DNA of 64,000 nucleotides from Schumannella sp. 10F1B-5-1. GTDB taxonomy: Bacteria; Actinomycetota; Actinomycetes; Actinomycetales; Microbacteriaceae. The notes under the pieces are model-generated. The model worked only from the letters and a program-made list of their open reading frames with translations. It made no database searches and was not told the DNA's origin. The DNA lies in contig NZ_VHQH01000034.1 of NCBI RefSeq assembly GCF_006517535.1, positions 1 to 64,000 on the forward strand, given 5' to 3'. A program made the translations under genes and the position numbers. This document shows positions 41,250 through 61,409 of the stretch, piece after piece; within the stretch, counting starts at the first letter, position 1, and each line of letters starts with the position of its first letter.

Positions 41250-44200
41250 ATGCCGCGTACGTCCCGTCTCCTCAGCGTCGCCGTCGCGGGCGTCGCCGCC
41301 CTGTCGCTCGCGCTCGCTCCCGCGGTGGTCGCCGTCGCCGCGCCCACGGGGTTCGTCGCGCTGACCCTCACCGGCTCGGGTGCCCCGGTGCCCGGCAGCA
41401 TGGTCACCCTGCGGGTCAACGGCAGCATCGATCAGACCCAGTTCACCGACCCGGATGGTCTGCTGACCTTCACGGGTGTGCCGGCCGGGCAGATCGATCT
41501 CGACGCCGGTGCCGATCGTCAGGGCTGGACCCCGCAGCGCTCGACGGTGGATGTGGTGGCCGACGCGACATCGCAGGTGTCGATCGACCTCGTGCCCAGC
41601 CCCGACTTCGTCGTCACGGGGCTCGTCACCGGCCCGGACGGCGCGCCCCTCGTCGGAGCGTCCGTGACGCTGACCGCGCCGTGGGACGGCATCTACGACT
41701 CCTGGGGAACGCAGACCGACGAGAGCGGTCGCTACCGGCTCGACGGGATCTGGACTCCCGTCGCCCAGCTCATGGTGACCCCCGTCGACGCCGCGCTCGT
41801 GCCGTTCTCCCAGACCATCGACACCACCGTCGGCGGGCGGGACGTGCAGCTCGCGGCCGCGGCGACCGGCACCGCCCGGCTCTCGGGCCGGCTCGTCGAC
41901 CGTGCGACCGGCGAACCCATCGAGGGCGCCTCGGTGTCGGTCGGCGCGATGAGCGCGAACGGCGGATGGTTCTCGCGCTCGGCGACGACGACCGCCGACG
42001 GGCGCTACGACCTGACGGCGCTGCCGGCGGGCGAGTACTCGATCAACGTCTGGGTGCCCGTGCTGCCGGGCGAGACCCCCTGGACTCCGTACTCCTCGCG
42101 CATCACGCTGGCCGACGGGCAGGACCGCGCCCGCGACATCTCGATCAAGCGGGTGCGCACCGGCACCGCATCCATCTCGGGTCATCTGCGTGATGACGCC
42201 GGCAACCCCCTCCCCAACGTCTGGATGTCGCTGGCCGGGGCCTTCAGCTCGGTGACGACGGATGCCGAGGGCGCGTACACGATCCCGAACCTCGTCGCCG
42301 GGCGGTACACCGTCGTGGTCGGCAGCATCGGCGAGCGGTTCAAGCCGCTCGACTGGGCGACCAGCGCCGTCACGGTGCCCACCGACTCGAGCGCGGTCGA
42401 GCGCGACTTCACCCTCACGCGCTGGCCAGTGGGGCAGCGCACCGTCTCGGGTGTCGTCACCGACGACCGCACGGGAGCGGCGGTGGCGGGCGCCCAGGTC
42501 GGGCTCTACCCGGTCGAGTCGGGCACGGCTCCCTACCGCAACACGACGGCGGATCCGAATGGGCGCTGGAGCTTCACCGACGTCGCCGCCGGCGACTACC
42601 GCGTGAGCGTCAACGCGCCGAACGGCGGCGGCAACTGGGCCTGGTCGGCGCCGAGCGACGTCGTGACGGTCGGCGCGACCGACGTCACCCTGCCGCTGCA
42701 CCTGACCTCGGTCGTCGCGGGCGTCGGCGGAGTCCAGGGCCGGGTCGTCGACGCCGACACCCACCTGCCGATCGCCGGGGTGGAGCTCGCCGCGACCCGC
42801 AGCCAGGGCGGGTGGAACGCGCAGACCACCAGCGACGCGCAAGGACGCTACGCGCTCGCTCAGCTGCCGGCCGGCGAGTACTACCTCTCGGCGCAGAGCG
42901 ACGGGCGACAGGTGCGCGGCGGCGGTGTGCAGGTCTCGATCGCCGACCGCGTCGAGCGCGTCAGCATCCCGATGATCGCCGCGCCGAGCCAGGTCGGCGG
43001 CGACGGTCTCGCCGAGGTCAGCGTCGTCGACGCGGCAGGTGATCCGATCACCGGCGCCTCGGTCTGGGTCACGACGCCCCGCGGAGACTGGGTGGCGACG
43101 AACGGCTCCTCCTCCGACAGCGACGGCCTCGTCGAGCTCGCGAACCTGCCGGTCGGCGAGGAGCTGATCGTGCACTCCCGCTCGGGCTGGATGGGCGGCA
43201 ACGATCTCGTCGGATCGGCGCGGCTCACGGTCGCTCCCGGTGATGCCGCGACCGCGCTGACGCTCACCCTCGCCGCGTCGAGCACGATCGCCGGCGCGGT
43301 GGACGCGGCCGGCGTCGAGGGCGACCTGATCGTCGCGGCGCTCTCGGGTGACGGCAGCATCCTCGGCACCTCGGCTGTCGAGGACGACGGCACGTATCGC
43401 ATCGTCGGCCTCGAGCCGGGTTCGTATCGGGTCATGCTCACCGGCGACTCGCTCAGGTTCTCGGGCGAGGCGGGTGAGGCGATCAGCGACGAGCTCGTCG
43501 CCGGTCAGCGCTTCTGGTCGTCGAGCTCCGTCACCGGTGTCGCGGCGATCTCCGACGCGGATGCGGTGCCGGTGACCGCCGACGAGGTCAGTCTCGGTCA
43601 CGACTTCCGCGCGGTGCTCGGCGGAACGATCGCCACGACCGTGCGCGTCAGCACCGGCGACGGCGTCGCCGACCTGCCGGCGGGCAAGTTCCTGCGCGTC
43701 GCGGTCTTCGAGCGCCTCGGCGCGACGTGGTCCGAGCGCACGGACTCGGAGACCTGGGTCGCCGCGACGTCGGGCGGTCAGCTGCTCGTGCGCGCGCTTC
43801 CCGACGGCGACTACAAGCTCCGTATCGAGGACTCGGTGCAGGGCAACCGCGCGCTCGCGACGGTCTGGAACGGCGGTGCCGCGTCGCGCTCGGCGGCGGC
43901 GGTCATCCACGTCACCGGCGGTCACGTCACGCGACCCGACACCACCGTCATGGAGGTCGCCCGACCCGGTGACGACCCCGAGGCGATCGACCTCGACGAC
44001 TACGACGGCGAGGTCGTGGCCGGACTCGAAGGCGGGGTCGACGCGCCCGCATCCGTGTCCGAGGGCCAGAAGGTCTCGGTCGACGTCGGCACCGAGTTCG
44101 CCGGCGAATGGGTCGCCGTCTGGGCGAACTCGACGCCCACGCTCGCCGCCGACTGGGTGCAGGTGCAGGCCGACGGCACGGTGGCCGTGCGAGTGCCCGC

Positions 44201-44540
44201 CGGGCTCACGTCGCAGGGATCTCAGCACCGGCTGGTCGTGCAGGATGCCGATCAGACAGCGATCGGCTGGGCCCCCGTGACCGTGTCGGCGACGCCCGGC
44301 GGCGGTTCCCTGCCGGGTTCCGGTGGCGGGACGATCCCCGGCTCGGTCGGAGACGGGTCGTCGGCCGCACCCGTCGGCGGCGGTATCGGCGCGACGGCGG
44401 CATCGGCGCGGGCCTCGCGTCTGGCCGCCACCGGGGTCGAGGGGTCGGGTGACCTCGCGCTCGCGGCGCTGGCGACCGCGGTGCTCGGTGCTGCGCTGCT
44501 GATCATGGGACGCCGTCGGCGACGGAGCGCGCGCGTCTGA
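41250..44540 (+). CDS. LAATG-anchored surface protein with carboxypeptidase-regulatory-like repeats
   Basis: This 1096-residue exported protein has a clear signal peptide (LLSVAVAGVAALSLALAPAVVAVAA). The body is a series of about ten 80-100 residue beta-sandwich modules of the carboxypeptidase regulatory-like (CarboxypepD_reg / prealbumin-like) type. Each module opens with a G-x-V-x-D/T-x-x-G-x-P-V-x-G-A pattern (for example VTGLVTGPDGAPLVGASVTLT, LSGRLVDRATGEPIEGASVSV, VSGVVTDDRTGAAVAGAQVGL). Each module closes with a Y-x-L-x-x-L-P-A-G-x-Y turn (YDLTALPAGEYSINV, YALAQLPAGEYYLSA). A Gly/Ser-rich stalk then leads to LAATG (1058-1062), a transmembrane helix and GRRRRRSARV, the layout of a sortase substrate. 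GGAGG precedes the ATG. It is probably a rod-like wall protein. Confidence 0.88.
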   Translation: MPRTSRLLSVAVAGVAALSLALAPAVVAVAAPTGFVALTLTGSGAPVPGSMVTLRVNGSIDQTQFTDPDGLLTFTGVPAGQIDLDAGADRQGWTPQRSTVDVVADATSQVSIDLVPSPDFVVTGLVTGPDGAPLVGASVTLTAPWDGIYDSWGTQTDESGRYRLDGIWTPVAQLMVTPVDAALVPFSQTIDTTVGGRDVQLAAAATGTARLSGRLVDRATGEPIEGASVSVGAMSANGGWFSRSATTTADGRYDLTALPAGEYSINVWVPVLPGETPWTPYSSRITLADGQDRARDISIKRVRTGTASISGHLRDDAGNPLPNVWMSLAGAFSSVTTDAEGAYTIPNLVAGRYTVVVGSIGERFKPLDWATSAVTVPTDSSAVERDFTLTRWPVGQRTVSGVVTDDRTGAAVAGAQVGLYPVESGTAPYRNTTADPNGRWSFTDVAAGDYRVSVNAPNGGGNWAWSAPSDVVTVGATDVTLPLHLTSVVAGVGGVQGRVVDADTHLPIAGVELAATRSQGGWNAQTTSDAQGRYALAQLPAGEYYLSAQSDGRQVRGGGVQVSIADRVERVSIPMIAAPSQVGGDGLAEVSVVDAAGDPITGASVWVTTPRGDWVATNGSSSDSDGLVELANLPVGEELIVHSRSGWMGGNDLVGSARLTVAPGDAATALTLTLAASSTIAGAVDAAGVEGDLIVAALSGDGSILGTSAVEDDGTYRIVGLEPGSYRVMLTGDSLRFSGEAGEAISDELVAGQRFWSSSSVTGVAAISDADAVPVTADEVSLGHDFRAVLGGTIATTVRVSTGDGVADLPAGKFLRVAVFERLGATWSERTDSETWVAATSGGQLLVRALPDGDYKLRIEDSVQGNRALATVWNGGAASRSAAAVIHVTGGHVTRPDTTVMEVARPGDDPEAIDLDDYDGEVVAGLEGGVDAPASVSEGQKVSVDVGTEFAGEWVAVWANSTPTLAADWVQVQADGTVAVRVPAGLTSQGSQHRLVVQDADQTAIGWAPVTVSATPGGGSLPGSGGGTIPGSVGDGSSAAPVGGGIGATAASARASRLAATGVEGSGDLALAALATAVLGAALLIMGRRRRRSARV

Positions 44541-48553: not shown

Positions 48554-51500
48554 TCAGCTCGCGCTGCCGCCGTGGCCGCGCCCGCCGAGGCGAGGCGTGC
48601 GGGCCCGACGCCGGGCGAGCACGAGCCCGCCGGCGCCGAGCACCATCAGCAGCAGTGCGAAGAGCAGGGGCAGCCCGCCGTCGACGCCGGTGCCGGCGAG
48701 CCCGCCGGAGCCCGTGCCGCCCGTGCCGGGCGCACCCGGAGTGCCGGGGTCACCGGGCGCGGTCGGAGCGCCCGGGCCGTCGATCGTGAGCACGGCCTGC
48801 GACAGCGTGCCCGCCTGGTCGGCCACCTGGTAGCCGATGCTGGCGACGCCGCGGAAGGCGGGGTCGGGCGTGAAGGTGATCGTGCCGTCGGGGTTGGCGA
48901 CGTAGACGCCGACGCCCGCGACCTCGACGCGCTGCACGGCCGCGCCGCTGACCGGGTCGATAAGGCGCAGCGAGCTGCGCACGAACGGCGAGGCTCCCGG
49001 CTGGTCGTTGCCGAGCACGTCGACCGTGACCGGCTGACCGTCGCGGGCCGAGGCCCGGTCGTCGACGGCCTTCGGCGGCGTGACCGACACGGTGAGCGTG
49101 GATGCGGTGGTCACTCCGTTGCCGTCGGCCACCCGGTAGGGCGTGGTGACCGAGCCGGTGAACCCGGCCGCGGGCGTGAAGGCGATCTCGCCGGCGACGA
49201 CCTCGAAGACGCCCTGCGGCACCTCGAGGCGGGTGACCGGGTTGCCGTCGCCGTCGAGCAGCACGAGGGTGGCCGGGTCGAGCGGCGAACTCGTCGCGGT
49301 GTCGTTGGCGAGCACATCCACGGTCACGGCGACACCGGGATCGGTGCTGGCGCTGTCGGGCTGCGCGGCCGGCGGGGCGAGCACGGTCGGGGTCAGCGTC
49401 GCCTCGGCGGTGCCGCCGATGCTGGTGCCGACCCGGTAGGTGATCGGGGTGCCGGCGCCGACGAAGCCGCTGACGGGCACGAAGCGCACCGTGCCCGCGG
49501 CGGTGTCGACCGTGTAGGTGCCCTCGCCCGCGACCGTGAGCGTGGTGACCGGGTCGCCGGTGGCCGGGTCGATCAGCACGAGCGTCGACGGCACGAACGT
49601 GACGTCGGGGTCGCCGGTCGCGTCGTTCGCCAGCGGGCTGAAGTCGACCGGGCTGCCGACGGGCGCCGAGGCGACGTCGTCGTTGGCGGCCGGCTGGCCG
49701 GGCTCGAGCACGGTGACCGTGATGGTCGACGTGGCGGCGGTTCCGAAGGTCGTCGCGGCGCTGTAGCCGACGGGGCTGGTCTGCCCGACGAAGGTGTTCA
49801 GCGGCGTGAAAGTGACCTGGTTGCCGGCGACGCTCCAGGTGCCCTGGTTGGGCACGATGAGCGTCGTGACGGAGTTGCCGCCGCCGTCGAGCAGGCGCAC
49901 GCCCGCGTCGACGAAGGTCGACTGCGCCGAGCCGGTGCTGTCGTTCGTCGTCGGGTCGAGGGTGACGGCCGTGTCGAACGGCGTGGTGCGCTCGTCGGCA
50001 CGTCCGGTCGGCGCGGCGCCCGGGGTGACGGTGATCGTCAGCTGGGCGGCGGCGGTGCGACCGAGGGTGTCGGCGGCCTGGTAGCCGACCGGCGCCGCGG
50101 TGCCGCTGAAGCCGGGCACCGGCGTGAACCGGATGCCTCCGGCGACGACCGCGTAGTCGCCCTGCCCGGCGACGGTCAGCGCGGTGACCGGCGTGGTGCC
50201 GTCGAGCAGGCGCAGCGTGCTCGCGTCGAAGCGGGCGGCGGGGTTGTCGGTGTCGTTCGCGAGCACGTCGGTCGTGACCCCGACGCCCTGCGGCGTCGTG
50301 TTCTGGTCGTCGGCCGCGCTGGGCGCCGGCGGGGCGCCGACGGTGACCGTGATGGTCGACGCGGCGGTGCGCCCGAAGGTGGTCGTGGCGCGGTAGCCGA
50401 TCGGGTCGGCCTGGCCGGTGAACGAGGCGCGCGGGCTGAAGGTGACGACGCCGTTCGCGACGGTCCAGGTGCCCTGGTCGGCGACCATGACGGTCGTCGC
50501 GGGCTGACCGCCGGCGTCGATCAGCCGCACGCTCGAGGCGACCCAGGTGGCCGTCGGGGCGCCGGTCGCGTCGTTGTCGGTGGGGCGCACATCCACGCTC
50601 GTGTTCCAGGGGGTGGATGCGGTGTCGGGCTGCGCGATCGGAGCGTCCGCCGCCGTCACGGTGACGGTGACGGTCGAGGTCGTGCTGCGGCCGAGGCCGT
50701 CGCCGACGCGGTAGCCGACAGGGGTGCCGACTCCGGCGAACTCGGGCACCGGAGCGAAGCGCACCGCGCCGTTCACGACCGAGTAGGTGCCCTCACCGGT
50801 GATCGTGCGGGTGCTCACGGCCTGGCCGTCCGCGTCGATCAGCACGAGGGTCGCGGGGTCGAGCGGCGCCGCCGGGGTGGCGGTGTCGTTGTCGAGCACC
50901 GGCACCGTGATCGGCGTGTTCTCGGGCGTCGTGGCCGTGTCGGGCTGGGCGCTCGGCGCCGGCGGCGCGCCGACGGTGATCGTCAGCGTCGAGCTGACGG
51001 TCGTGCCGAGGTTCGTCGCGGCCGTGTAGGTGACGGCCGGGGCGGCGCCGCGGAACGCGGGATCGGGGTCGAACGACACCGTGCCGTCGGTCGCGACCGT
51101 GTACACGCCGACGCCCGCGACCTCGAGGGTCGTGACGGGGGCGTCGCCGTTCGCGGCGTCGATCAGGCGCAGCGTGGTCGGGTCGAACGTCGCGTTCGCC
51201 GCGCCCGTGCTGTCGTTGCCCAGCACGGCGATGCCGGTGACCGTCGTGTCGTAGGGCGTGGTCGCCGTGTCGGCCGTGCCCGTGGGCGCGGCGGCCGGCG
51301 TGACCGTGTCGGTCAGCGTGGTGCTGGCGAAGCGGCCTAGTCCGTCGGTGACGCGGTAGGTGACGGGCGCGGCCGGGCCGGTGAAGGTCGGCACCGGCGT
51401 GAAGCGGATCTGCCCGTCGACGACCTCGTAGAGGCCCTGGCCGGTCACGTTGAGCGACGCGGCCCAGGTGTCCGGTCCCGTCTGCAGCTCGAGCGAGTCG

Positions 51501-54500
51501 GGGTCGAACACCGCGGCCGGGTTGTCGCTGTCGTTCGCGAGCACGTCGGTCGTCACGGCGACGCCCTGCGGTGTCGTGTCGGTGTCGGGGTCGGCGGTCG
51601 GCGCCGGGGGCGCATCCACGGTGATCGTGATGGTCGAGCCGACGGTCTTGCCGAAGTTCGTCTGCACGCGGTAGTCGACCGGCGCGGTCTCGCCGCTGTA
51701 GGTCTCGACCGGCGTGAAGTCGACCGTGTTGTCGCTGGTGTCGACGACGTAGGTGCCGACGCCGGGCACGACGAGCGAGGTGACCTCGGTGCCGGAGCCG
51801 TCGACGAGCACGAGCGAGCCGACGACGAAGGCGGCGGCCGTCGAGCCCGGCGACGCGCTGTCGTTGGCCGTCGGGGTGACGGTCACGGGCGTGTTCCACG
51901 GCGTGCCCTGGGTGTCGGGCGCGGCCGTCGGGTCGGCGGCCGCCGTCACGGTGGGCGTGTAGCGCGAGGTGGCGACGCGGCCCTTCGTGTCGGAGACCTG
52001 GTAGGGCACGCCGCTGGTCGTGCCGGTGTAGGTCGGCAGCGGGGTGAAGCGGATGCTGCCGGCCGGCACGGTGCCGCCGACCGAGTAGGTGCCCTGCCCG
52101 GCGATCGTGCGCGAGGTGCCGGTCGTGCCGTCGGGGAAGCGCAGCAGCACCGATCCCGGCACGAGCTCGGCATCGGCGGCGTCGGTGTCGTTGCCGACCA
52201 CGTCGGTGGTCACGGCGACGCCCTGCGCGGTGGTGTCGATGTCGGGGCTGGCCGCGGGGCCGCCCGTCTCGCCGACCTGGATCGTGATGGTCGACTGCGC
52301 GGTCTGGCCGAAGGTCGTGTCCTCGCGGTAGGTGACCGGGGTCGTGGTCGCCCCCGCGAAGGTCGACAGCGGCGTGAACACGGCGCGGCCGTTCGCGATC
52401 GTCCAGGTGCCCTCGTTCGCGACGACGAGCGTGGTCGACTCGACGCCCGCGGCGTTGACGTAGCGCAGCGTCGAGGCGACGAAGGTCGCGGCCGTCGAGC
52501 CCGGGTCGTCGTTCGCGGCCGGGTTCAGGTTGACCGCCGTGTTGTAGGGCGTCAGGCGCGTGTCGGGGTTGCCGGTCGGCGCCGCGGCCGGCACGACCGT
52601 GTCGACGAGGGTCGCGCTGGCGTAGCGGCCGAGGCTGTCGGCGACGCGGTAGGTGACGGCGGATGCGGTGCCCGAGAACGTGGGCAGCGGCGTGAAGCGG
52701 ATCTGCCCGTTCACGACGTCGTAGGTGCCCTGGTTCGCGACGGTCAGGGTCGACGCCCAGGTGCCCGGTCCGGTCTGCAGCTGCAGGGTGCCCGCGTCGA
52801 AGCGCGCGGCCGGGTTGTCGGTGTCGTTGGTGAGCACGTTCGTGGTCACCGGCACGCCCTGCGGGGTCGAGTCGGAGTCGTTCGCGGCGGTCGGCGCCGG
52901 GGGCGCATCCACCGTGATCGTGATGGTCGACTGTGCGGTCTTGCCGAACGTGGTCGTGGCGCGATACGGCACGGCCGTGGCGACGCCCGAGAAGGTGTCG
53001 ACCGGCGTGAATCCGACGGTGCCGTCGGCGTTCACGACGTAGCTGCCCTGCCCGGCGACCGTGAGCGACTTGACCGGGTTGGCGCCGTCGAGCAGCACGA
53101 CCGAGCTCGCGACGAAGCTCGCGGCGGTCGATCCCGGGTTGTCGTTGGTCAGTGGAGAGACGCTGGTGGCGGTGTTCCACGGCGTCGACTTCGTGTCGGG
53201 GGTCGCGGTGGGCGCGGGTGCCGGCGTGACGGTGATCGTCAGCGTCGACTGCGCCGTGCGGCCGAGCGAGTCGGCGACACGGTAGGGCACCGAGGTGGCC
53301 GTGCCGCTGAAGGTCGGCAGCGGCGTGAAGCGGATCTGGCCGCTCACCACGTCGTAGGTGCCCTCGCCCGCGATCGTGCGGGTCGCGACGGCGTTGCCGG
53401 CCCCGTCGAGCAGGGTGAGGCTCGAGCTCTGCAGCGGGAACGCGGCGGGCGCGGTGTCGTTGGCGAGCACGTTCGAGGTGATCGCGACGCCCTGCGGCGT
53501 GGTGCCGGTGTCGCTGTTGGCGACCGGCAGCGGCGGCTCGCCGACCGTGATCGTGATGGTCGACTGCACGCTGCGGTTGAACGTGGTGGTGGCGGTGTAG
53601 TTCACCGCGGTCGCGGTGCCGCGGAACGACGCGAGCGGCGTGAAGGTGACGATGCCGGTGGTCGTGTCGACCGAGTACGAGCCCTCGTTCGCGACCGTCA
53701 GCGACGTGACCGGGGTCGAGCCCTGCAGCAGACGCACGCTCGACTTGGTGAACGATGCCGCCGTCGAGCCGGGGTTGTCGTTCGCGGTCGGGTCGACCGT
53801 GGTGGCGGTGTTGTACGGGGTCGACTTCGTGTCGGGCGTCGCGGAGGGCGCGCCCGCCGCGGTGACCGTCGGCGTGATCTTGGCGGCGTTCGAGGTGTGG
53901 CCGAGCGAATCCTGCACGGTGTAGCTCGGCGGCGTCGAGACGGTGCCGGTGAAGGTCGGGAGGGGCGTGAAGACGACCTGGCCGCTCTGCACCGTATAGG
54001 TGCCCTGCCCGGCGACCGTGACGGTGCTGCCGGTGGCGCCCGAGACCGGGTCGATGAGCGTGATGGTCGACGCGTTGAGCGTGCCGGCGCGGGCGGTGTC
54101 GTTGCCGATCACGTTGATCGTGACGGGCGTGCCCTGCGGGGTCGTCGCCGTGTCGTCGGCGGCCAGCGGCGGCAGGTTGATCGTGAACGGCGTCGGGTCG
54201 GTCGTGCCGGCGACCGCCGGGTCGTCGGAGGTGACCGTCTGCGAGCCGTACTGCACCGTCGCGGTGTTGGTGTTCGATCCATTCGTCGCCGTGGCGCCGA
54301 CGAGCGCCTTCGCGGTGAAGGTCAGCTTGCCGGCGCTGGCCCTCGGCACCGTGATCGAGGGGATGCTGAGGGTGCGCCCGCCGTTCGAGATCGCGGGCGT
54401 GCCGCCGCCGGGCTGGGCGGGCGAGACGCCGCCGCTGACCCAGGTGAGGCCGGTCGGCAGGGTGTCGAGGAAGTTGATCGCCGACACCGACTGCGCCGTC

Positions 54501-55477
54501 GGGTTCGACAGCTGGAACGTGAAGGTGAGCTGATCGCCGACGGTCGCGATCGAGGGCGAGACCGACTTGCCGAGCGTCGCCGGCAGGCAGGCGGTGGCGT
54601 CGAAGGCGCCGAGGCCGGTCTGCGGGATCGCGCCGAGGTCGGTCAGCACCCGGGCGCTCGGGTCGAACTTCCAGATGTGTCCGGTGCCCGTTCCCGGCGT
54701 GTCGCGGTTCTGGTAGTAGTACAGGTTGCCGAGCGCGTCGCTCCACGAGCCGCCCGCGCGCCGGGTCGGCGAGAGCAGCTGCGGGGCCGCCGACATGGTG
54801 ACCTTGCCGATCGTCGGACCGCCGGCCGCATCCAGGTCAATGTCCCACATCTGACCCGCGTCGTCGGGGGCGTAGAGGTGGCCGTCGTAGGGGTTGAACG
54901 AGACGTCGTCGAGCTGCGAGGTCGGCAGCGTGCCGGCGACGGTCGGCGTCAGCGTCTGGCTCGTGCCGACCTTGGTGCTCACGTTGAGCTTGGTGATCTG
55001 CGTGTTGTCGGTCGACACCCAGATGAGCTGGTTCTCGTCGTCGATGACGCCGTTCAGCGGCTGGCTCTGCTTCGGGGCGGTGCCCTGGTAGGTGGGCGCG
55101 CCGATGTCCTCGAGGTCGCTGCCGTAGCCCGCGCCGAAGCGCAGGATGTGCCCGGCGGTGGCGCCCGTGCCGGTGTCGATGCCGTAGACCAGCCCGTCGT
55201 TGACGTTGTAGCCGATCGCGTTCATCGGCCGCGTCAGCGTCACACCTGGCGTGAAGGTCAGTGTTCCGCCGTTGTTGGAGATGCGCGACACGACCGCGTT
55301 GGTCGTCGTGCTGGCCGCCGACACGGTGATGCCGGCGTCGGTGCACGGGATGGCCGCGGGCGCCGCATAGGCGGGCTGCGCGGTCTCGACGGTGCCGATG
55401 ACGACGAGCGCCGTCGCAGCGACCGCCGTGGCGGTGAGGATGGACAGCCCCCGGAGGGCAGGACGATGCGAGGACAT
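48554..55477 (-). CDS. Giant LAGTG-anchored adhesin-like protein with 17 CshA-type fibril repeats
   Basis: This 2307-residue protein has a signal peptide (ILTATAVAATALVVIGTVETAQPAYAAP). An N-terminal domain of ~260 residues (NAIGYNVNDGLVYGID, DVSFNPYDGHLYA, GGSWSDALGNLYYYQN) has propeller-like repeats. A DUF11-like domain follows at ~300-420 (SVSPSIATVGDQLTFTFQLSN), then 17 repeats of ~105 residues at 435-2233. I assign them to the CshA-type fibril repeat family from patterns such as VTTDVLANDTDNPAARFD, VAGQGTY, IRFTPLPTFSG and YRVADSLGR. A Gly/Pro stalk, LAGTG (2260-2264), a helix and an Arg-rich tail form a sortase substrate. It adjoins a paralogue of the same architecture at 55758. A role in adhesion or fibril formation is inferred from the family. 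Confidence 0.9.
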   Translation of the reverse strand: MSSHRPALRGLSILTATAVAATALVVIGTVETAQPAYAAPAAIPCTDAGITVSAASTTTNAVVSRISNNGGTLTFTPGVTLTRPMNAIGYNVNDGLVYGIDTGTGATAGHILRFGAGYGSDLEDIGAPTYQGTAPKQSQPLNGVIDDENQLIWVSTDNTQITKLNVSTKVGTSQTLTPTVAGTLPTSQLDDVSFNPYDGHLYAPDDAGQMWDIDLDAAGGPTIGKVTMSAAPQLLSPTRRAGGSWSDALGNLYYYQNRDTPGTGTGHIWKFDPSARVLTDLGAIPQTGLGAFDATACLPATLGKSVSPSIATVGDQLTFTFQLSNPTAQSVSAINFLDTLPTGLTWVSGGVSPAQPGGGTPAISNGGRTLSIPSITVPRASAGKLTFTAKALVGATATNGSNTNTATVQYGSQTVTSDDPAVAGTTDPTPFTINLPPLAADDTATTPQGTPVTINVIGNDTARAGTLNASTITLIDPVSGATGSTVTVAGQGTYTVQSGQVVFTPLPTFTGTVSTPPSYTVQDSLGHTSNAAKITPTVTAAGAPSATPDTKSTPYNTATTVDPTANDNPGSTAASFTKSSVRLLQGSTPVTSLTVANEGSYSVDTTTGIVTFTPLASFRGTATAVNYTATTTFNRSVQSTITITVGEPPLPVANSDTGTTPQGVAITSNVLANDTAPAAFPLQSSSLTLLDGAGNAVATRTIAGEGTYDVVSGQIRFTPLPTFSGTATSVPYRVADSLGRTAQSTLTITVTPAPAPTATPDTKSTPWNTATSVSPLTNDNPGSTAASFVASSVVLLDGANPVKSLTVAGQGSYVVNADGTVGFTPVDTFSGVATAVPYRATTTFGKTAQSTITITVDAPPAPTAANDSDSTPQGVPVTTNVLTNDTDNPAARFDAGTLQLQTGPGTWASTLTVANQGTYDVVNGQIRFTPLPTFSGTASAVTYRVADSLGRYASATLVDTVVPAAAPTGNPDTRLTPYNTAVNLNPAANDDPGSTAATFVASTLRYVNAAGVESTTLVVANEGTWTIANGRAVFTPLSTFAGATTTPVTYREDTTFGQTAQSTITIQVGETGGPAASPDIDTTAQGVAVTTDVVGNDTDAADAELVPGSVLLRFPDGTTGTSRTIAGQGTYSVGGTVPAGSIRFTPLPTYTGTTSGVPYQVSDTKGRVATSRYTPTVTAAADPTAAPDTQGTPWNTPVTVTPTANDSASPGSTAAAFVVGSLVLVDGSGTEVTSLVVPGVGTYVVDTSDNTVDFTPVETYSGETAPVDYRVQTNFGKTVGSTITITVDAPPAPTADPDTDTTPQGVAVTTDVLANDSDNPAAVFDPDSLELQTGPDTWAASLNVTGQGLYEVVDGQIRFTPVPTFTGPAAPVTYRVTDGLGRFASTTLTDTVTPAAAPTGTADTATTPYDTTVTGIAVLGNDSTGAANATFDPTTLRLIDAANGDAPVTTLEVAGVGVYTVATDGTVSFDPDPAFRGAAPAVTYTAATNLGTTVSSTLTITVGAPPAPSAQPDTATTPENTPITVPVLDNDTATPAAPLDPATLVLIDADGQAVSTRTITGEGTYSVVNGAVRFAPVPEFAGVGTPVGYRVGDGLGRSTTSTVTVTVTAADAPIAQPDTASTPWNTSVDVRPTDNDATGAPTATWVASSVRLIDAGGQPATTVMVADQGTWTVANGVVTFSPRASFTGQADPIGYRATTTFGRTAASTITVTVGAPPAPSAADDQNTTPQGVGVTTDVLANDTDNPAARFDASTLRLLDGTTPVTALTVAGQGDYAVVAGGIRFTPVPGFSGTAAPVGYQAADTLGRTAAAQLTITVTPGAAPTGRADERTTPFDTAVTLDPTTNDSTGSAQSTFVDAGVRLLDGGGNSVTTLIVPNQGTWSVAGNQVTFTPLNTFVGQTSPVGYSAATTFGTAATSTITVTVLEPGQPAANDDVASAPVGSPVDFSPLANDATGDPDVTFVPSTLVLIDPATGDPVTTLTVAGEGTYTVDTAAGTVRFVPVSGFVGAGTPITYRVGTSIGGTAEATLTPTVLAPPAAQPDSASTDPGVAVTVDVLANDTATSSPLDPATLVLLDGDGNPVTRLEVPQGVFEVVAGEIAFTPAAGFTGSVTTPYRVADGNGVTTASTLTVSVTPPKAVDDRASARDGQPVTVDVLGNDQPGASPFVRSSLRLIDPVSGAAVQRVEVAGVGVYVANPDGTITFTPDPAFRGVASIGYQVADQAGTLSQAVLTIDGPGAPTAPGDPGTPGAPGTGGTGSGGLAGTGVDGGLPLLFALLLMVLGAGGLVLARRRARTPRLGGRGHGGSAS
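48776..54175 (-). repeat. Coding repeat array: 17 fibril modules in alternating A and B subtypes
   Basis: Modules 1-14 alternate without exception. Subtype A begins around TPQG and closes with a Y-R-V-x-D-x-L-G-R pattern. Subtype B begins around TPWN or TPYN and closes with A-T-T-F-G-x-T-x-x-S-T-I-T. Modules 15-17 are a distinct terminal set (starting SAPVGSP, STDPGVA, SARDGQP). Boundaries are approximate. Confidence 0.8.
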
Positions 55478-55586
55478 CGAGCGCTCTTTTCCCTGATCAG
55501 GAAGGGTCCGACGGTGGTGAGTCGCCCGGCCGCACCTCGCCCCCGCGAAGTTCGTTGACAGCCGTGAAGGATCCCCCTTGCGAGGG

Positions 55587-55615
55587 AGCGTAATGGAGAA
55601 CCCCTTGCCTGCCTA
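55587..55615 (-). promoter_or_regulatory. Possible promoter of the 2307-residue protein
   Basis: On the minus strand TAGGCA (55615-55610) and TACGCT (55592-55587) are 17 bases apart. The transcript would start near 55580 and carry a leader of about 100 bases. Confidence 0.45.
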
Positions 55616-55698
55616 CCCCGTCAGTGAGAGCCACTCACCCGGGTGACGAGGGGTGTCTGCGGCCGTGCCCGAGCGTGTCCGTTCGCCGCCGGACGCAC

Positions 55699-55735
55699 GG
55701 GAGGGCGGGACCGACCGTGTCGATCCCGCCCTCCC
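55699..55735 (-). terminator. Terminator of the 1883-residue protein gene
   Basis: Perfect 12-base arms GGGAGGGCGGGA / TCCCGCCCTCCC with a 13-base loop lie 22 bases beyond the stop of the minus-strand gene at 55758. It insulates the two giant genes from each other. Confidence 0.75.
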
Positions 55736-55757
55736 ACGGTGCTCAGCGTGCCTCGGC

Positions 55758-58700
55758 TCAGCTCGCGGCGTCACCCTCCGCGCGGCGGCGGCGCAGCTGC
55801 AGGCTGAGCAGCGCGAGCGCGCCCGCGAGCAGCAGCGACAGCGACACCGTGAGGCCGGCGATCGGGCTCACCCCCGTGGCCGCGAGGCCGCCGGCGCCCG
55901 AGCCGGATCCGGCGGGAACCGCATCCGGGCCCTCGATCAGGATGACCGACTCCGACAGCACCCCCGCCTCATCCTCGACCTGGTAGCCGATGCGGTAGTC
56001 GCCGGTGAAGCCGGCGACGGGCACGAAGGTGACGGTGCCGTCGGCGTTGACCGAGAACACGCCCACGTTCGGCACGTCGACGCGCGTGACCGGCGCGTGC
56101 GTCGTCGGGTCGAGCAGACGCAGCGTGCTGCGCACGAAGGGCGTGCGGCCCGGGGTGTCGTTCGCGAGCGGGTCGATCGTGACCGGGCGACCGGCCTCGA
56201 CCTTGACGACGTCCTGCGTCGACTCCGGCTCCTTCACGGTGACGGTGACGGTGGATGCGGTGGGCACCCCGTTCTCGTCCTCGACCTGGTACGACGCCAC
56301 GGCCTTGCCGGTGAAGCCCTGCGCCGGCGTGAAGACGATCTCGCCCGCGACCACCTCGAAGACGCCCTGCGGGGTCTCGAGGCGGGTCACCGGCTTGCTC
56401 TCCGCATCCAGCAGCACCAGGGTGCTCGTGTCGAGCGGCGAGGTGGTGGCCTCATCGTTGTCGAGCACGTCGACCGTGACCGCGCGGCCCGGGTCGGTGA
56501 CGGCCGTGTCGGCCTTCGCCACCGGGGGAGCGAGGATCGTCGGCACCAGGCGCGAGCCCGTCTCGTCGCCGAAGCTGGTCTCGACCGTGTAGGCGACCGC
56601 GTCGGCCGTGCCGACGTAGCCGGCGACCGGCGTGAAGGTGACCTCGCCGGTGGTGCGGTTCACGCTCCAGGTGCCCTGGTCGGCGACGGTGACCTCGGTC
56701 ACGGGGTCGCCGGTCTTCGGGTCGGTGAGCGACAGGGTGTCGAGCTTCCAGCTCGCCGCCGGCACGCCGGTGCTGTCGTTGCTCAGCGGCGTGAAGACGA
56801 TCGGCTTCTCGAAGGGGCCGCTCTTCTCGTCGATGCTGGCCGTCGGAACGCCCGGTCGGCCGACCTTCACGTGGATGGTCGAGTCGGCCGTGGTGCCCAG
56901 GTTCGTCGTCGCGCGGTAGCCGACGGCGTCGGCCGTGCCGGTGAAGTCGGCGTCGGGCGTGAAGGTCACGACGCCGTTCTCGATGGTCCAGACGCCCTGG
57001 CCGGCGACCTCGACGCGGTCGGTCGGAACCGGGGTCGCGTCGCGGCTGAGCAGCACGGTCTTCGACGTGTCCCAGGTCGCGTAGGGCGAGCCGAGGTCGG
57101 TGTCGTTGGCCGTCGGGGTGATCGAGACCGGGGTGTCGTAGTCCGTCGACGTCTCGTCCTTGACCGCCGCGGGCGCATCCGCTGGCGTCACCGTGATCTG
57201 CACGGTGTCGCTCACGTCGCGGCCCAGCGCGTCCTGGGTGACGTAGGTGAGCTTCGTGCCGGTGCCCGAGAAGGTCTTCGCCGGGGTGAAGACGACGTCG
57301 CCGTCGATGACCTCGTAGATGCCCTCGTCGAGCACGACCTTCGTCTTCGCCACGTCATCCGCCGGGTCGACGAGCTTCAGCTTCGAGCCGTCGAGCGGCG
57401 CCGCCGGGGTGGCGGTGTCGTCGCCGAGCACGTTCACTGTGACCGAGGTGCCCTGGTCGATCGTCTGCGCGTTCGGCTTCGTCGTCGCGACCGGCGGGAT
57501 GCCGACGGTCGGGGTGATCGTCGAGCTGATCGGCTCGCCGAAGGTCGTCGTGGCCGAGTAGCCGATGCCCTCGTCGGGGGTGCCGGTGAAGGAGGCGTCG
57601 GGCGTGAAGGTGACCTCGTCATCCGCGTTCACGGAGTAGGTGCCGACGCCCTGAACGTAGACCGCGTCGCGGGTCGGGCCGTTCGGTCCGGCCAGCATCA
57701 GGCTGTTCTTCACGAAGCCCTTCGCGGTCGACGTCGACTCGGGAGCCGGGTCGTCGTTCGCGAGCGGCGAGAGCGTGACCGCCGTGTTCCAGTCGGTCGA
57801 CGGGGTGTCGGCCGTGGCCTTCGGCGCGGCGGCGGGGTCGACGCTGACGACCACCGTGGATGCCACGGTGCGGTTCAGCGTGTCGGTCACCCGGTAGTCG
57901 ACGGCCACGCCGGCGCCCGTGTAGGTGGGCAGCGGAGCGAACTCGACCGTGTCATCCGCGGTCACCGTGTAGGTGCCGACGCCCTCGATCGTGACGCTCT
58001 TCGCCCACGTCGTGTCGGCGCCGTCGGTCTTCTTCAGCTCGAGCGTGCCCTTCTTGGGCGGGTTCGCGGGGGTGAAGGGGTCGTCGGCGAGCACGTCGAC
58101 GGTCTTCTTCACACCCTGCGGGGTGCTGTCGCTGTTCGGCAACGCGACCGTGGCGGCCGGGGCCGAGACGGTCACGTCGATCGTCGTCGTCGCGGACTTG
58201 CCGTAGGTCGTCGAGGCGGTGTACTTCACCTGCGTGGCCGCGCCCGAGAAGGTGTCGAGCGGGGTGAAGGTGACGCGGCCGTCGGCGCCGACGGTCCAGG
58301 TGCCCTCGTCCGCGACCTCGAGGGTCGTGACGGGCTGCGCCGGGTCGCCGTTCTTCAGCAGCTTCACGCTCGTGGCGACCCAGGTCGCGCCGGTCGCGCC
58401 GGTGTCGTCCTTGCCGGCCCCGTCGGCATCCCCGTTCAGCACGTCGAGCGTGATGGCGGTGTCATAGGGGGTCGTGCCCGAGTCGGGCTTCGCGACGGGG
58501 TTCGGCGCGGCGACGACCGTGTCGGTCAGGCTCGCGGAGGCCGTGCGGCCGAGCGAGTCCGTCACGCGGTACGGGATCGTCGTGCCCTCGCCGGTGAACG
58601 TCGCGACCGGCGTGAAGGTGATCTGCCCGTCGGCGGTCGTCTCGTAGACGCCCTCGTTCGGGATCGTGACCTTCGTGCCCCACGCGTTCGTCGCCGGGTC

Positions 58701-61409
58701 CTGGATCTGCAGGGTCGTCACGTCGAAGCGCGCGGCGGCGTAGTCGGTATCGTCGGCGAGCACCTTCGTGGTCACCGGCGTGTTCTGCGGCGTCTCGTCG
58801 GTGTTCGCCTTCGCGGAGGGAGTCGGCGGGGCGCCGACCGTGATCGTGATGGTCGAGCCGGTCGTGCGGCCGAAGCTCGTGCCGACCTCGTAGGAGACGG
58901 CCGTGGCCGGGCCGGTGAAGCTGTCGAGCGGCGTGAACTTCACGACGTCGTTGCCATCGCCGTCGACCACGACCTCGTAGGTGCCCTGGTTCGCGACGAC
59001 GAGCTTCTTCGTGGTGCGGGTCGCGCCGCTGCCGTTCGGGTCGACGAGCACGAGACTGCCGGGGGTGAAGGTCTCGACGGTCGAGCCGGTCTTGTCGTTC
59101 GCGAGCGGGTTCACGGTCGTGGCCGTGTTCCAGTCGGTGTCCTTCGTGTCGGCCTGCGGCGCGGGAGCCGGGGCCGGGTCGACCGTGACCTTGACGGTCG
59201 AGACGTTCGACCACTGGCCCAGGCTGTCCTTGACGCGGAAGCTCACCGCGCCCGGGTCGCCGGTGAAGGTCGCGACGGGGGTGAAGACGACCTTGCCGTC
59301 CTTCACCTCGTAGGTGCCCTTGCCGTCGATCGTGATCTTGCTGACGTCGGCGTTGCCGTTCGCGGTGTCGACGAGGGTCAGGGTGCTCGCCGCGATCGTC
59401 GCGGCGGAGCCGCCCGTGGTGGCGTCGGCCAGCACATCCACCGTCTTCGCGACGCCCTGCGGCGTCGTGTCGGCGTGCGACTTCGTGGTCGGCGGGGCCG
59501 GTTTGCCGACCGTGATCGTGATGGTCGAGCTCAGCGGGGCGCCGAAGTTCGTGGATGCCGTGTAGGTCACCGCGGTCGCGGTCTTGCCGGCGAAGCTCGC
59601 GAGCGGCGCGAAGGTCACGACCCCGTCGACGACCTTGTAGGTGCCCTCGTTCGGGATGCTCAGGGTCGTCACGGGCGCGTTGCCGTTGTTCGGGTCGAGC
59701 AGCTTGACGCTCGAGGCGTCGGCGGTCTCGTTCGTACGCAGCGGCACGTCGTTCGCGAGCGGCGAGACGCTCACCGCCGTGTTGTAGGCGGTGTCCTTCG
59801 CGTCCGGCGTGGCCGTCGGCGCGCTGCCGGTCGCGGCGGTCACGGTCGGGGTGATCGTGGCCTGGTTCGACTCACGACCCGCGGTGTCCTTGACCGTGTA
59901 CTTCGCCGGCTTCGTGACCGTGCCCGTGAAAGTGCCGGCGGGGGTGAACACGACCTCGTTCGACACCACCGTGTAGGTGCCCTCGCCGTCGACCGCGACG
60001 GTGTTGTTCGTCGCGGCGGTGCCGTCGGGGTTGTAGAGCGTGATGGTGGCGGGGTCGATCGGGCTGGTGCGGGCCGTGTCGCCGGTGCGTACCGGGATGC
60101 TGACGGCCTTGCCCTGCGGCGTCGTCGCGGTGTCGTCGTTCGCGAGCGGCGGCATGACGAGCGTGAACGGGGTGCCGTCCTTCTCGCCGAGCTGGTTCGG
60201 GTCGTCGGAGGTCACGGTCACGTCGCCGGTCGGCGTCGTGTAGATGACGCTCGCCTGGTTGATGTTCGTGCCGGCGGCAGCGGTGTAGCCGACCTTCGCC
60301 TGCGCCGTGATGACGGTGCGTCCGTCGCGCGCGCGGGGCACCGGGATGTTCCCGCTGACGGAGAGGGTCCGACCCGAGATCGAGGCGGTCGCCGAGGCCG
60401 GCACGCCGGTCACGCTGCCGGCCACCCAGGAGAGCCCGCTCGGGAGGGTGTCGGCGAAGGCGTGGGCGTTGGTGGCCTGGTTGGTGGGGTTGCTGATCGT
60501 GAACGAGAACGTCAGCGTGTCGCCGACGGTCGCCGAGCTCGGCGACACCGTCTTCGACATGGTCGGCGGGAGACAGGCCGTGGCGTCGAACACCGAGGCG
60601 GCGGCGATCGCTCCCATGTCGGTGTAGGTGGCGGTGCTCGGGGCGTATTTCCAGAGGTGATGCTGGGCGGCGAGGTTCTGGTAGAAGTACATGTTCCCGA
60701 CCGAGTCGCTCCACGATCCACCGGCTCGGCCGTTCGGTGCGCCGGGGCTGTTGAACGCGGGCGTGGTCAGGGCCAGCGTCGCCTCGGCCGTCGTCGGATC
60801 GATCTTGAGCATTCCGCTGTCGGTCAGGGCGTAGAGCGAGTTGCCGTACGGGTCGAACGAGATGTCGTCGATCTGCGGCACCGTGCCGGTGATCTTGGTC
60901 GAGGTCGCAGTGCGCGAAGCGCCCGTGGCGAGCGAGACCTTCGAGACCCACGCGTTGCTGTTGTTGTTGCGGACGATGAAGTACATCGTGTTCGTGTCGT
61001 CGACGACACCGTTGAGCAGCTGAAGCGTTCCGACGCCGGAGATGTTCCAGTTGATCAGGCCGAGGTCCTCCTCGCCGGAGCCGTAGTCGCTGCCGAACCG
61101 CACCAGATGCCCGGCCGAGTTGACGCCATAGACGAGGCCGTCCATCACGTTGTAGCCGATTCCGTTGACGTTGTCGTTCAGGGTGCCGACCGCCTCGAGC
61201 GCACCCGTCGTGTTGTTCACCCGCGAGACGGTGCTCGGGTCGCCGGCGGCGTTGGCCGAGACGGTGATTCCGGCCGTGGTGCAGGTCACCGGCGTCGCCG
61301 CCTGCGCGGCCTCGGGTGCGGCGATCGCGCCGAGCACGGCGAGGCTGGACGCGGCGAGCGCTCCGGCGGTCAGGGTCGCCAGGGCACGGATGGGCGTACG
61401 GGTGCGCAC
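55758..61409 (-). CDS. Giant LAATG-anchored adhesin-like protein with 13 CshA-type fibril repeats
   Basis: This 1883-residue paralogue of the neighbouring 2307-residue protein has the same domain order. Signal peptide: ALATLTAGALAASSLAVLGAIAAPEAAQA. The N-terminal domain keeps NGIGYNVMDGLVYGVN, DDISFDPYGNSLYAL and GGSWSDSVGNMYFYQN. DUF11-like: SKTVSPSSATVGDTLTFSFTISN. Thirteen ~107-residue fibril repeats span ~419-1827. Then SGAGGLAATG (LAATG at 1842-1846), a helix and RRRRAEGD. I placed the start at the GTG at 61409, preceded by GGGGAG at 8 bases; the frame is open to 62858 but that part is antisense to the HerA-like gene. It probably arose with its neighbour by tandem duplication, followed by gain or loss of repeat pairs. 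Confidence 0.9.
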   Translation of the reverse strand: MRTRTPIRALATLTAGALAASSLAVLGAIAAPEAAQAATPVTCTTAGITVSANAAGDPSTVSRVNNTTGALEAVGTLNDNVNGIGYNVMDGLVYGVNSAGHLVRFGSDYGSGEEDLGLINWNISGVGTLQLLNGVVDDTNTMYFIVRNNNSNAWVSKVSLATGASRTATSTKITGTVPQIDDISFDPYGNSLYALTDSGMLKIDPTTAEATLALTTPAFNSPGAPNGRAGGSWSDSVGNMYFYQNLAAQHHLWKYAPSTATYTDMGAIAAASVFDATACLPPTMSKTVSPSSATVGDTLTFSFTISNPTNQATNAHAFADTLPSGLSWVAGSVTGVPASATASISGRTLSVSGNIPVPRARDGRTVITAQAKVGYTAAAGTNINQASVIYTTPTGDVTVTSDDPNQLGEKDGTPFTLVMPPLANDDTATTPQGKAVSIPVRTGDTARTSPIDPATITLYNPDGTAATNNTVAVDGEGTYTVVSNEVVFTPAGTFTGTVTKPAKYTVKDTAGRESNQATITPTVTAATGSAPTATPDAKDTAYNTAVSVSPLANDVPLRTNETADASSVKLLDPNNGNAPVTTLSIPNEGTYKVVDGVVTFAPLASFAGKTATAVTYTASTNFGAPLSSTITITVGKPAPPTTKSHADTTPQGVAKTVDVLADATTGGSAATIAASTLTLVDTANGNADVSKITIDGKGTYEVKDGKVVFTPVATFTGDPGAVSFRVKDSLGQWSNVSTVKVTVDPAPAPAPQADTKDTDWNTATTVNPLANDKTGSTVETFTPGSLVLVDPNGSGATRTTKKLVVANQGTYEVVVDGDGNDVVKFTPLDSFTGPATAVSYEVGTSFGRTTGSTITITVGAPPTPSAKANTDETPQNTPVTTKVLADDTDYAAARFDVTTLQIQDPATNAWGTKVTIPNEGVYETTADGQITFTPVATFTGEGTTIPYRVTDSLGRTASASLTDTVVAAPNPVAKPDSGTTPYDTAITLDVLNGDADGAGKDDTGATGATWVATSVKLLKNGDPAQPVTTLEVADEGTWTVGADGRVTFTPLDTFSGAATQVKYTASTTYGKSATTTIDVTVSAPAATVALPNSDSTPQGVKKTVDVLADDPFTPANPPKKGTLELKKTDGADTTWAKSVTIEGVGTYTVTADDTVEFAPLPTYTGAGVAVDYRVTDTLNRTVASTVVVSVDPAAAPKATADTPSTDWNTAVTLSPLANDDPAPESTSTAKGFVKNSLMLAGPNGPTRDAVYVQGVGTYSVNADDEVTFTPDASFTGTPDEGIGYSATTTFGEPISSTITPTVGIPPVATTKPNAQTIDQGTSVTVNVLGDDTATPAAPLDGSKLKLVDPADDVAKTKVVLDEGIYEVIDGDVVFTPAKTFSGTGTKLTYVTQDALGRDVSDTVQITVTPADAPAAVKDETSTDYDTPVSITPTANDTDLGSPYATWDTSKTVLLSRDATPVPTDRVEVAGQGVWTIENGVVTFTPDADFTGTADAVGYRATTNLGTTADSTIHVKVGRPGVPTASIDEKSGPFEKPIVFTPLSNDSTGVPAASWKLDTLSLTDPKTGDPVTEVTVADQGTWSVNRTTGEVTFTPVAGYVGTADAVAYTVETSFGDETGSRLVPTILAPPVAKADTAVTDPGRAVTVDVLDNDEATTSPLDTSTLVLLDAESKPVTRLETPQGVFEVVAGEIVFTPAQGFTGKAVASYQVEDENGVPTASTVTVTVKEPESTQDVVKVEAGRPVTIDPLANDTPGRTPFVRSTLRLLDPTTHAPVTRVDVPNVGVFSVNADGTVTFVPVAGFTGDYRIGYQVEDEAGVLSESVILIEGPDAVPAGSGSGAGGLAATGVSPIAGLTVSLSLLLAGALALLSLQLRRRRAEGDAAS
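55928..60156 (-). repeat. Coding repeat array: 13 fibril modules in alternating A and B subtypes
   Basis: Modules 1-10 alternate A-B like those of the neighbouring gene. Modules 11-13 match the terminal trio of that gene (starts SGPFEKP, VTDPGRA, KVEAGRP; the last two share SPLD and PFVRSxLRL). Sequence divergence between modules is high, so this is an old array. Boundaries are approximate. Confidence 0.8.

Follow-up and report, generated by a model that had tools for sequence, protein, structure and literature searches.

Two adjoining giant surface-protein genes, 280 bases apart on the minus strand, encode long arrays of CshA modules in which two subtypes, A and B, strictly alternate up to a trio of modules near the wall end. 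They lie in the 64,000-nucleotide stretch of Schumannella sp. 10F1B-5-1 DNA analysed here (contig NZ_VHQH01000034.1, positions 1 to 64,000; the window). Alternating stalks were also encountered in other bacteria, which raises the possibility that unlike domains meet at specialised joints. Bacterial stalks are usually viewed as strings of equivalent domains; alternating arrays, together with arrays having a period of four modules, are higher-order repeats in Ig-like fibres. Alternating CshA stalks let one test if selection sees junctions instead of modules, and they offer natural two-module pieces (A-B, B-A, A-A and B-B) usable for measuring stiffness and folding of the joints.

Table 1. Features of the two surface-protein genes, in window coordinates.
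Feature	Position	Strand	Remarks
Gene 1, surface protein with 17 CshA modules	48554..55477	-	2307 aa, ATG start
Gene 1 head	54704..55297	-	DUF6923 (PF21959) match, 60.5 bits
Gene 1 DUF11 domain, between head and stalk	54236..54571	-	Pfam match
Gene 1 modules 1-14, seven A-B pairs, strict alternation	49709..54172	-	HMM cut, profiles, tree
Gene 1 terminal trio, modules 15-17	48782..49693	-	In tree, 15 with B, 16 and 17 with A
Gene 1 LAGTG motif, hydrophobic stretch and Arg-rich tail	48557..48700	-	Sortase-type anchor, by eye
Gene 2, surface protein with 13 CshA modules	55758..61409	-	1883 aa, GTG start
Gene 2 DUF11 domain	60219..60557	-	Pfam match
Gene 2 modules 1-10, five A-B pairs, strict alternation	56862..60152	-	HMM cut, profiles, tree
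Gene 2 terminal trio, modules 11-13	55935..56846	-	HMM cut, profiles, tree
Gene 2 LAATG motif, hydrophobic stretch and Arg-rich tail	55761..55886	-	By eye

The initial annotation had given the positions of the genes and the lengths and module numbers of their products correctly (table 1). The curated profiles CshA_repeat (PF19076) and TIGR04225 mark 17 stretches in the product of gene 1 and 13 in that of gene 2, with scores of 652.3 and 405 bits for PF19076 (cut-off, 27) and of 661.1 and 428.4 bits for TIGR04225 (cut-off, 60), and an independent iterative HMM cut yielded 30 modules with the same 17 + 13 distribution. Both proteins are thus members of the family as defined by tandem modules of approximately 100 residues scoring above the cut-off of a curated profile, and the structure of a Streptococcus gordonii CshA repeat (PDB 6szc) was matched by sequence. 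Inspection by eye revealed a signal-like N-terminal start in both proteins, and the region formed by the head and the DUF11 domain is 51% identical between the two. The head of gene 1 finds only weak matches outside its own genome, being detected in five of the 299 family genomes including its own; a head model was poor (pLDDT 57.3) and was left out of the analysis. Sortases of class E recognise LAxTG motifs, and two sortase matches were found in the genome. Both products would be cell-wall-anchored fibrillar proteins, with a head and DUF11 region, a CshA rod and an LAxTG anchor, and they are probably adhesins. At lower coordinates than both genes, the window also encodes a 1096-residue surface protein (41250-44540, plus strand) that contains seven CarboxypepD_reg stretches and terminates in an anchor-like LAATG region.

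The tests of alternation cover the modules that precede the trio, namely 14 in gene 1 and 10 in gene 2. For these 24 modules the mean identity is 0.462 within a type versus 0.368 between types, a gap that was reached in none of 20 000 label shuffles. Leave-one-out HMM profiles typed 24/24 modules correctly with margins of 28-67 bits, and a repeat of the procedure gave 14/14 for gene 1 and 10/10 for gene 2; with three non-alternating control arrays, which were chosen by the analyst, only 3/16, 3/10 and 4/16 modules were assigned correctly. The strict alternation claimed in the initial annotation is therefore confirmed, as is the outcome expected of the module tree it had called for, in which A and B fall on separate sides across both genes. 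In the maximum-likelihood tree, the 12 B modules and the first module of each trio (T1) lie on one side of a branch with support 96/91, and the 12 A modules with both T2 and both T3 modules lie on the opposite side. One motif column suffices to tell the types apart: it holds Gln in 11 of the 12 A modules, Glu in the remaining one, and an aromatic residue in all 12 B modules.

Judged by the tree, the trio is no third kind of module, T1 being of B type and T2 and T3 of A type in both genes. Thus, the seven and five pairs plus a trio of the initial annotation were found again, with the correction that the trio is not a separate kind; the order becomes A B ... A B B' A' A'', and in both proteins alternation is broken close to the wall-side end, at B-B'. 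The difference of exactly two pairs between the genes was also addressed. In module-string alignments, the best solutions drop gene 1 modules 13-14 together with either 10-11 or 9-10 (sum, 6.622 each), and the next drops 13-14 and 7-8 (6.616). The tree anchors that link gene 1 and gene 2 modules (1 with 1, support 100/98; 12 with 10, 97/87; 11 with 9, 89/66) agree with this alignment. The length gap would be best explained by two separate insertions or deletions of one pair each. A pair-breaking solution that drops modules 7, 9, 13 and 14 is nearly tied (6.602 versus 6.622), so that gain or loss of whole pairs, although fitting the data as the initial annotation had implied, is supported and not proven.

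Recent copying was considered as the origin of the pattern and found to be unsupported. The top identity between two modules of one protein is 0.69, and at fourfold-degenerate sites no pair of window modules is nearly identical, the highest values being 0.83 (gene 1 module 17 and gene 2 module 8, 23 sites) and 0.82 (module 5 of gene 1 and of gene 2, 33 sites; gene 1 modules 8 and 14, 38 sites); there is thus no sign of very recent copying. The mean at these sites, 0.59, is above the 0.486 expected from the pooled composition, and therefore full saturation is not shown. From these values the window modules are taken to be old copies.

Information on where the two types differ was obtained by ranking the 104 model columns by mutual information with module type. 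The strand limits were taken from an AlphaFold2 model of modules 3-6 (A-B-A-B; pLDDT 97.2, pTM 0.75), in which the modules are nearly all-beta, with an Ig-like beta-sandwich, and the A and B types are equally well folded. The first Foldseek matches of the model were an RTX adhesin tetra-tandem repeat, then axonemal, contactin, sidekick and cadherin chains, with TM-scores of up to 0.33 among the 50 matches listed. Strand order would place the AB turn (columns 12-16) at a module's C-terminal pole and the FG loop (columns 87-91) at its N-terminal pole, so that the two are expected to meet at junctions. In the window, the top ten columns are 13, 87, 21, 14, 89, 85, 33, 15, 27 and 19; five of them fall in the AB turn or FG loop, which comprise 10 of the 104 columns (hypergeometric p 0.0006, to be read with the fact that the AB and FG motifs had been spotted by eye prior to the test). 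In the AB turn, Gln in A modules is opposed to Tyr, Trp or Phe in B modules.

The same columns were ranked in arrays outside the window, which are designated here by L (locus) and G (genome) codes, P0001 and P0002 being the window arrays. In L071, and in a clan of arrays to which it belongs (see below), positions 13 and 91 are the top two columns, and three of the top ten are in the AB turn or FG loop (p 0.054 each), rising to five of ten when the linkers are added to the set (p 0.0073 each). A rank-sum test of the AB turn and FG loop over all columns gave p values of 0.054 for the window, 0.020 for L071 and 0.11 for the clan. No such enrichment was found in L087 or in Flavobacteriia arrays (one of ten top columns each). 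Column ranks correlate between window and L071 (rho 0.34), window and clan (0.28) and L071 and clan (0.44; all p<=0.0044), and are uncorrelated between window and L087 (0.14, p 0.17) and between window and Flavobacteriia (-0.06). The pairwise interlock between unlike modules that the initial annotation had put forward as an explanation is thus consistent with where A and B differ: the differences lie on surfaces that should come together, a pattern seen in the window and, to a weaker degree, in L071 and the clan.

A survey of 31 arrays with at least seven modules, the window arrays included, was carried out on a non-random sample, many of its members having been gathered with an A-B pair profile. 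Arrays of the genus and family were collected with TIGR04225 and those of the class and order with the pair profile. The family search matched 35 of 299 genomes (E 1e-8), 19 of which were taken in together with three genus mates and 12 left out. The class search matched 10 of 394 genomes (G302 left out), the order search 19 of 396 (G977, G994 and G1030 left out) and a phylum search with TIGR04225 four of 296 (E 1e-12; the new G1116 and G1143 left out); named genomes searched with a second pair profile contributed 16 loci. The period count leaves out arrays of fewer than seven modules, L040-L042 (weak Ig-like repeats), the uncut plasmid arrays L069 and L070, and L084, which is on the same contig as L052.

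Taking the best of up to five periods, with p values uncorrected for this choice, a period of two was found at permutation p<=0.01 in eight of the 31 arrays: L087 (Arthrobacter bussei), L071, P0001, both L072 genes, L052, L091 and L073. Five more reached p<=0.05, namely P0002 (0.0125), L094, L051, L064 and L092. A period of four was present in G130 (55 modules) and L086 at p<=0.01 and in L065 at 0.04, and 15 arrays had no period at 0.05. Alternation is a minority pattern among the 12 plain TIGR04225 arrays outside the window, where it was detected in L052 (p<=0.01) and L051 (p 0.02); one of the others has a period of four (G130) and nine have no period at 0.05. The alternating arrays can be long, with at least 34 modules in L087 and 29 in L071, and leave-one-out typing recovers the parity of 29/29 modules in L071, 33/34 in L087, 11/11 in L052, 9/9 in L091, 11/12 and 8/9 in the L072 genes and 11/12 in L073. 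In L085, from the Actinomycetota metagenome-assembled genome (MAG) PROP3, parity was recovered for 12/17: motif and tree indicate that B modules 10 and 11 are adjacent, as are A modules 14 and 15, in an otherwise alternating array. Strict pairing as a general law, implied by the initial annotation, is contradicted by these same-type neighbours, by the period-4 arrays G130 and L086 and by the aperiodic 15 of 31.

Closer to the window, among the five genomes of the genus that were covered (its own included), two carry other stalks of 16 modules, one has four modules and one has none; no period of two was detected in the two 16-module stalks. Microbacterium sp. K24, from the same family, has an 1856-residue protein with an array of 11 modules. 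The locus G130:C1:22000-61999 (L043 and L044) is one open frame of 8594 residues, whose 55 CshA modules form a higher-order repeat of period 4, identity being 0.56 at offset 4 and 0.39-0.44 at offsets not divisible by 4. L086, from a Deinococcales MAG outside Actinomycetota, is at least 4843 residues long, and its eight CshA-like modules follow a period of four. In L073 (G711), modules 8 and 9 nearly duplicate modules 4 and 7 of the same gene, a recent change in which the A/B register was kept.

Whether one split or several underlie the alternating arrays was addressed by a cross-array test, in which the two type profiles of one array are used to type another; it replaced the typing of modules of other species with the window A and B profiles, which had given small margins. 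Seven arrays form a clan (L071, both L072 genes, L073, L052, L064 and L085) in which the phase agrees in all 42 ordered comparisons, with margins of 16 to 122 bits and p<=0.058. They come from family codes f1, f4 and f9 and from a metagenome-assembled actinomycete, that is, from at least three families. The window split has the expected sign in 17 of 28 comparisons with the clan, the lowest p value (0.004) being obtained with L071, and it has the contrary sign with L052 (p 0.035 and 0.052); on profile scores, therefore, the window would be tied to the clan split only weakly. The two Flavobacteriia arrays have a separate split in common (117 and 84 bits, p 0.006 and 0.056). In a joint cross-species tree of 127 rows with few columns, the 57 A and 57 B rows required two label changes each, against shuffled means of 38.3 and 38.2 (none of 500 as low), the phase, and with it the labels, having been chosen once for each array with the help of the Gln/aromatic motif. 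At least two label changes are imposed by strong branches, so that the split either arose twice or can no longer be resolved with such short modules. For L052 and L064, which belong to one genus, modules 1, 2, 5, 6 and 7 of 7 are paired position by position in the tree.

Covariation across junctions was compared with a null obtained by shuffling A modules among A and B among B within each array. In the alternating set (149 junctions of 11 arrays), covariation links the AB turn of one module (i) to the FG loop of its successor (i+1; z 2.2, p 0.007), and none was found for the reverse pair of blocks (z 0.2, p 0.416); among 289 block pairs the two rank 29th and 166th, respectively, and the first rank belongs to the AB turn paired with loop 21-34 of the following module (z 4.1). 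The other set (20 arrays, 247 junctions, some arrays being weakly periodic) gave a forward z of 6.4 (rank 19) and a reverse z of 4.1 (rank 73, p 0.005), with a mean block z of 3.1. The forward-minus-reverse difference has p values of 0.092 in the alternating set and 0.060 in the other, related arrays not being independent in this test. As far as sequences can tell, junction covariation leans towards the forward direction, which is not proof.

By taking into account these observations, the reading tentatively preferred, at somewhat less than an even chance, is that of specialised junctions between unlike modules in arrays that grow by pairs of neighbours. The rod would be a hetero-repeat of Ig/cadherin-like modules, with two versions of one fold by turns and hence A-to-B as well as B-to-A junctions, each built from complementary unlike surfaces (AB turn of a module against FG loop of its successor). 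Array length would change mainly by neighbouring pairs, and mispaired neighbours would be selected against yet not forbidden. Pairing is not obligatory, since period-4 arrays and the slipped homologue L085 exist. This reading is favoured by the alternation with its two-sided tree, by alternation elsewhere and the shared split, by the lack of near-identical module pairs in the window, by the peak of A/B differences at the AB turn and FG loop with the forward lean of covariation, by the column ranks that correlate between window, L071 and clan, and by the well-folded A-B-A-B model. It is weakened by the p values of 0.06-0.09 for the forward-minus-reverse difference, the modest forward ranks and the significant reverse covariation of the other set, by the lack of enrichment in L087 and Flavobacteriia, by fourfold-site values that do not show saturation, by the period-4 and aperiodic arrays, the same-type neighbours of L085, the basal B-B' step and the identical modules of L074 (see below), and by the window split matching the clan in sign in only 17 of 28 comparisons and running contrary to L052. 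The proposal that the CshA rods of Actinobacteria are two-component heteropolymers, in which the poles are co-adapted, only unlike neighbours dock well, length changes pairwise and a Gln/aromatic code of AB turn and FG loop is older than the split of several families, is unlikely when taken as a whole.

Close behind the specialised junctions comes a history frozen in the arrays, a reading that is possible without being probable: an ancestral pair of neighbours would have been duplicated repeatedly and the copies would have drifted, leaving alternation as a fossil with no present function. A shared duplication history of neighbours was sought in nine arrays with Mantel tests. It is evident in L071 when read as B-then-A pairs (r 0.50, p 0.001), with no sign of it in the A-then-B register (r 0.01, p 0.47), in both registers of L087 (r 0.57, p printed as 0.000, and r 0.33, p 0.012), in one register of L091 (r 0.88, p 0.038, four pairs) and in P0002 as B-then-A (r 0.77, p 0.041, four pairs only); P0001 shows a trend in the latter register (r 0.49, p 0.112), the first L072 gene leans to A-then-B (r 0.79, p 0.108), and no shared history was detected in the second L072 gene, L073 or L052. 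The view of the initial annotation that the pair is the unit of evolution thus holds for some of the nine arrays, but in L071, and as a trend in the window, the unit is B-then-A and not the A-then-B dimer envisaged. Besides the neighbours' shared history in L071, L087, L091 and P0002, a frozen history would account for period-4 units elsewhere, which fit a copied unit of variable size, for the near copies within L073 and for the position-by-position pairing of L052 with L064, which indicates that module order can simply be inherited. Three observations speak against it: the differences are uneven, being concentrated in the AB turn and FG loop of the window arrays and, to a lesser extent, of L071 and the clan; one split persists across families; and junction covariation leans forward.

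Third in order, and improbable, is the possibility that dissimilarity of neighbours is itself what matters, with unlike neighbours averting domain-swapped misfolding or slippage and recombination proceeding via the similar i+2 copies, so that any period of at least two would work. PMC9704523 discusses misfolding among tandem domains of high similarity, and neighbouring modules resemble each other less than other module pairs do in 18 of the 31 arrays, at p<=0.05 in L071, L087, L091, L052, the second L072 gene, L085 and L095; in the window the values are 0.416 versus 0.443 for P0001 (p 0.0525) and 0.332 versus 0.350 for P0002 (p 0.14). Against this, neighbours in the period-4 array G130 are as alike as the rest (0.419 versus 0.420), neighbours are more alike than the rest in six arrays, five neighbours are identical in L074, and the window differences peak at turns instead of being spread throughout. 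That A and B differ in binding surface or firmness, with sites or hinges spaced two modules apart and no special junction, is very doubtful: stalk binding would be compatible with all data, and S. gordonii CshA is reported to mix folded and partly folded repeats (PMC9704523), but the model shows A and B folded equally well and, as a weak point from the model, the top discriminating positions appear to be turns at the poles and not one exposed face.

Among known systems, the closest are the CshA_repeat stalks themselves (PF19076, TIGR04225; S. gordonii CshA, 6szc), with the same module family, a long stalk and a wall-anchor-like end. PMC10952558 describes 17 repeats in S. gordonii CshA and, for the CshA adhesin proper, an NR1/NR2/NR3 head with a CshA_NR2 domain. 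The window proteins differ from it in their alternating subtypes, in an LAxTG-like instead of LPxTG motif and in the head, which in gene 1 is of the DUF6923 type, with DUF11 in both proteins; CshA_NR2 is absent from the Pfam matches of both up to E 0.01. In stalks of DUF11 and DUF7507 (CLIPPER), two types of Ig-like domain often alternate in tandem (PMC12617251); they are two separate families, likely with isopeptide bonds, whereas the window has two subtypes of one family. The rods of SasG and Aap also have two domain types by turns, E and G5, whose interfaces give length and cooperativity (PMC4458895), and by analogy the window rod may work in a like manner, no homology being claimed. However, E and G5 are different domains with single-layer sheets, and E folds only with its neighbour; the window rod is not SasG-like in this respect, both of its types belonging to one family and both being modelled as folded. 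Embp, a giant surface protein, was first described with alternating FIVAR-GA repeats, a domain picture later revised (PMC9302970), and these repeats are unrelated to CshA modules. Periscope proteins, whose stalk repeats include CshA_repeat among their folds (PMC9704523), have very similar repeats that vary in number among strains, and the window modules, at most 69% identical within a protein, are not of this kind. No description of alternating CshA subtypes was found in the literature searched, which does not prove absence from print, and a paper on a 51-domain Mobiluncus adhesin contains no word beginning with 'alternat'. The novelty claimed in the initial annotation is thus upheld for CshA repeats within that literature, but alternation as such is in print for DUF11/DUF7507.

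At L074 (G770:C1:3296500-3305500), five consecutive CshA modules are identical in protein, the opposite extreme to the window arrays. On plasmid NZ_CP045321.1 of Roseivivax sp. THAF197b (L070, 4235-12815), the annotation splits an Ig-like array into successive separate coding sequences, several of them of 321 or 957 bases and each overlapping the next by 4 bases, and strain THAF40 (L069) has one long coding sequence where L070 has many, which would reflect either frame errors or real coupling.
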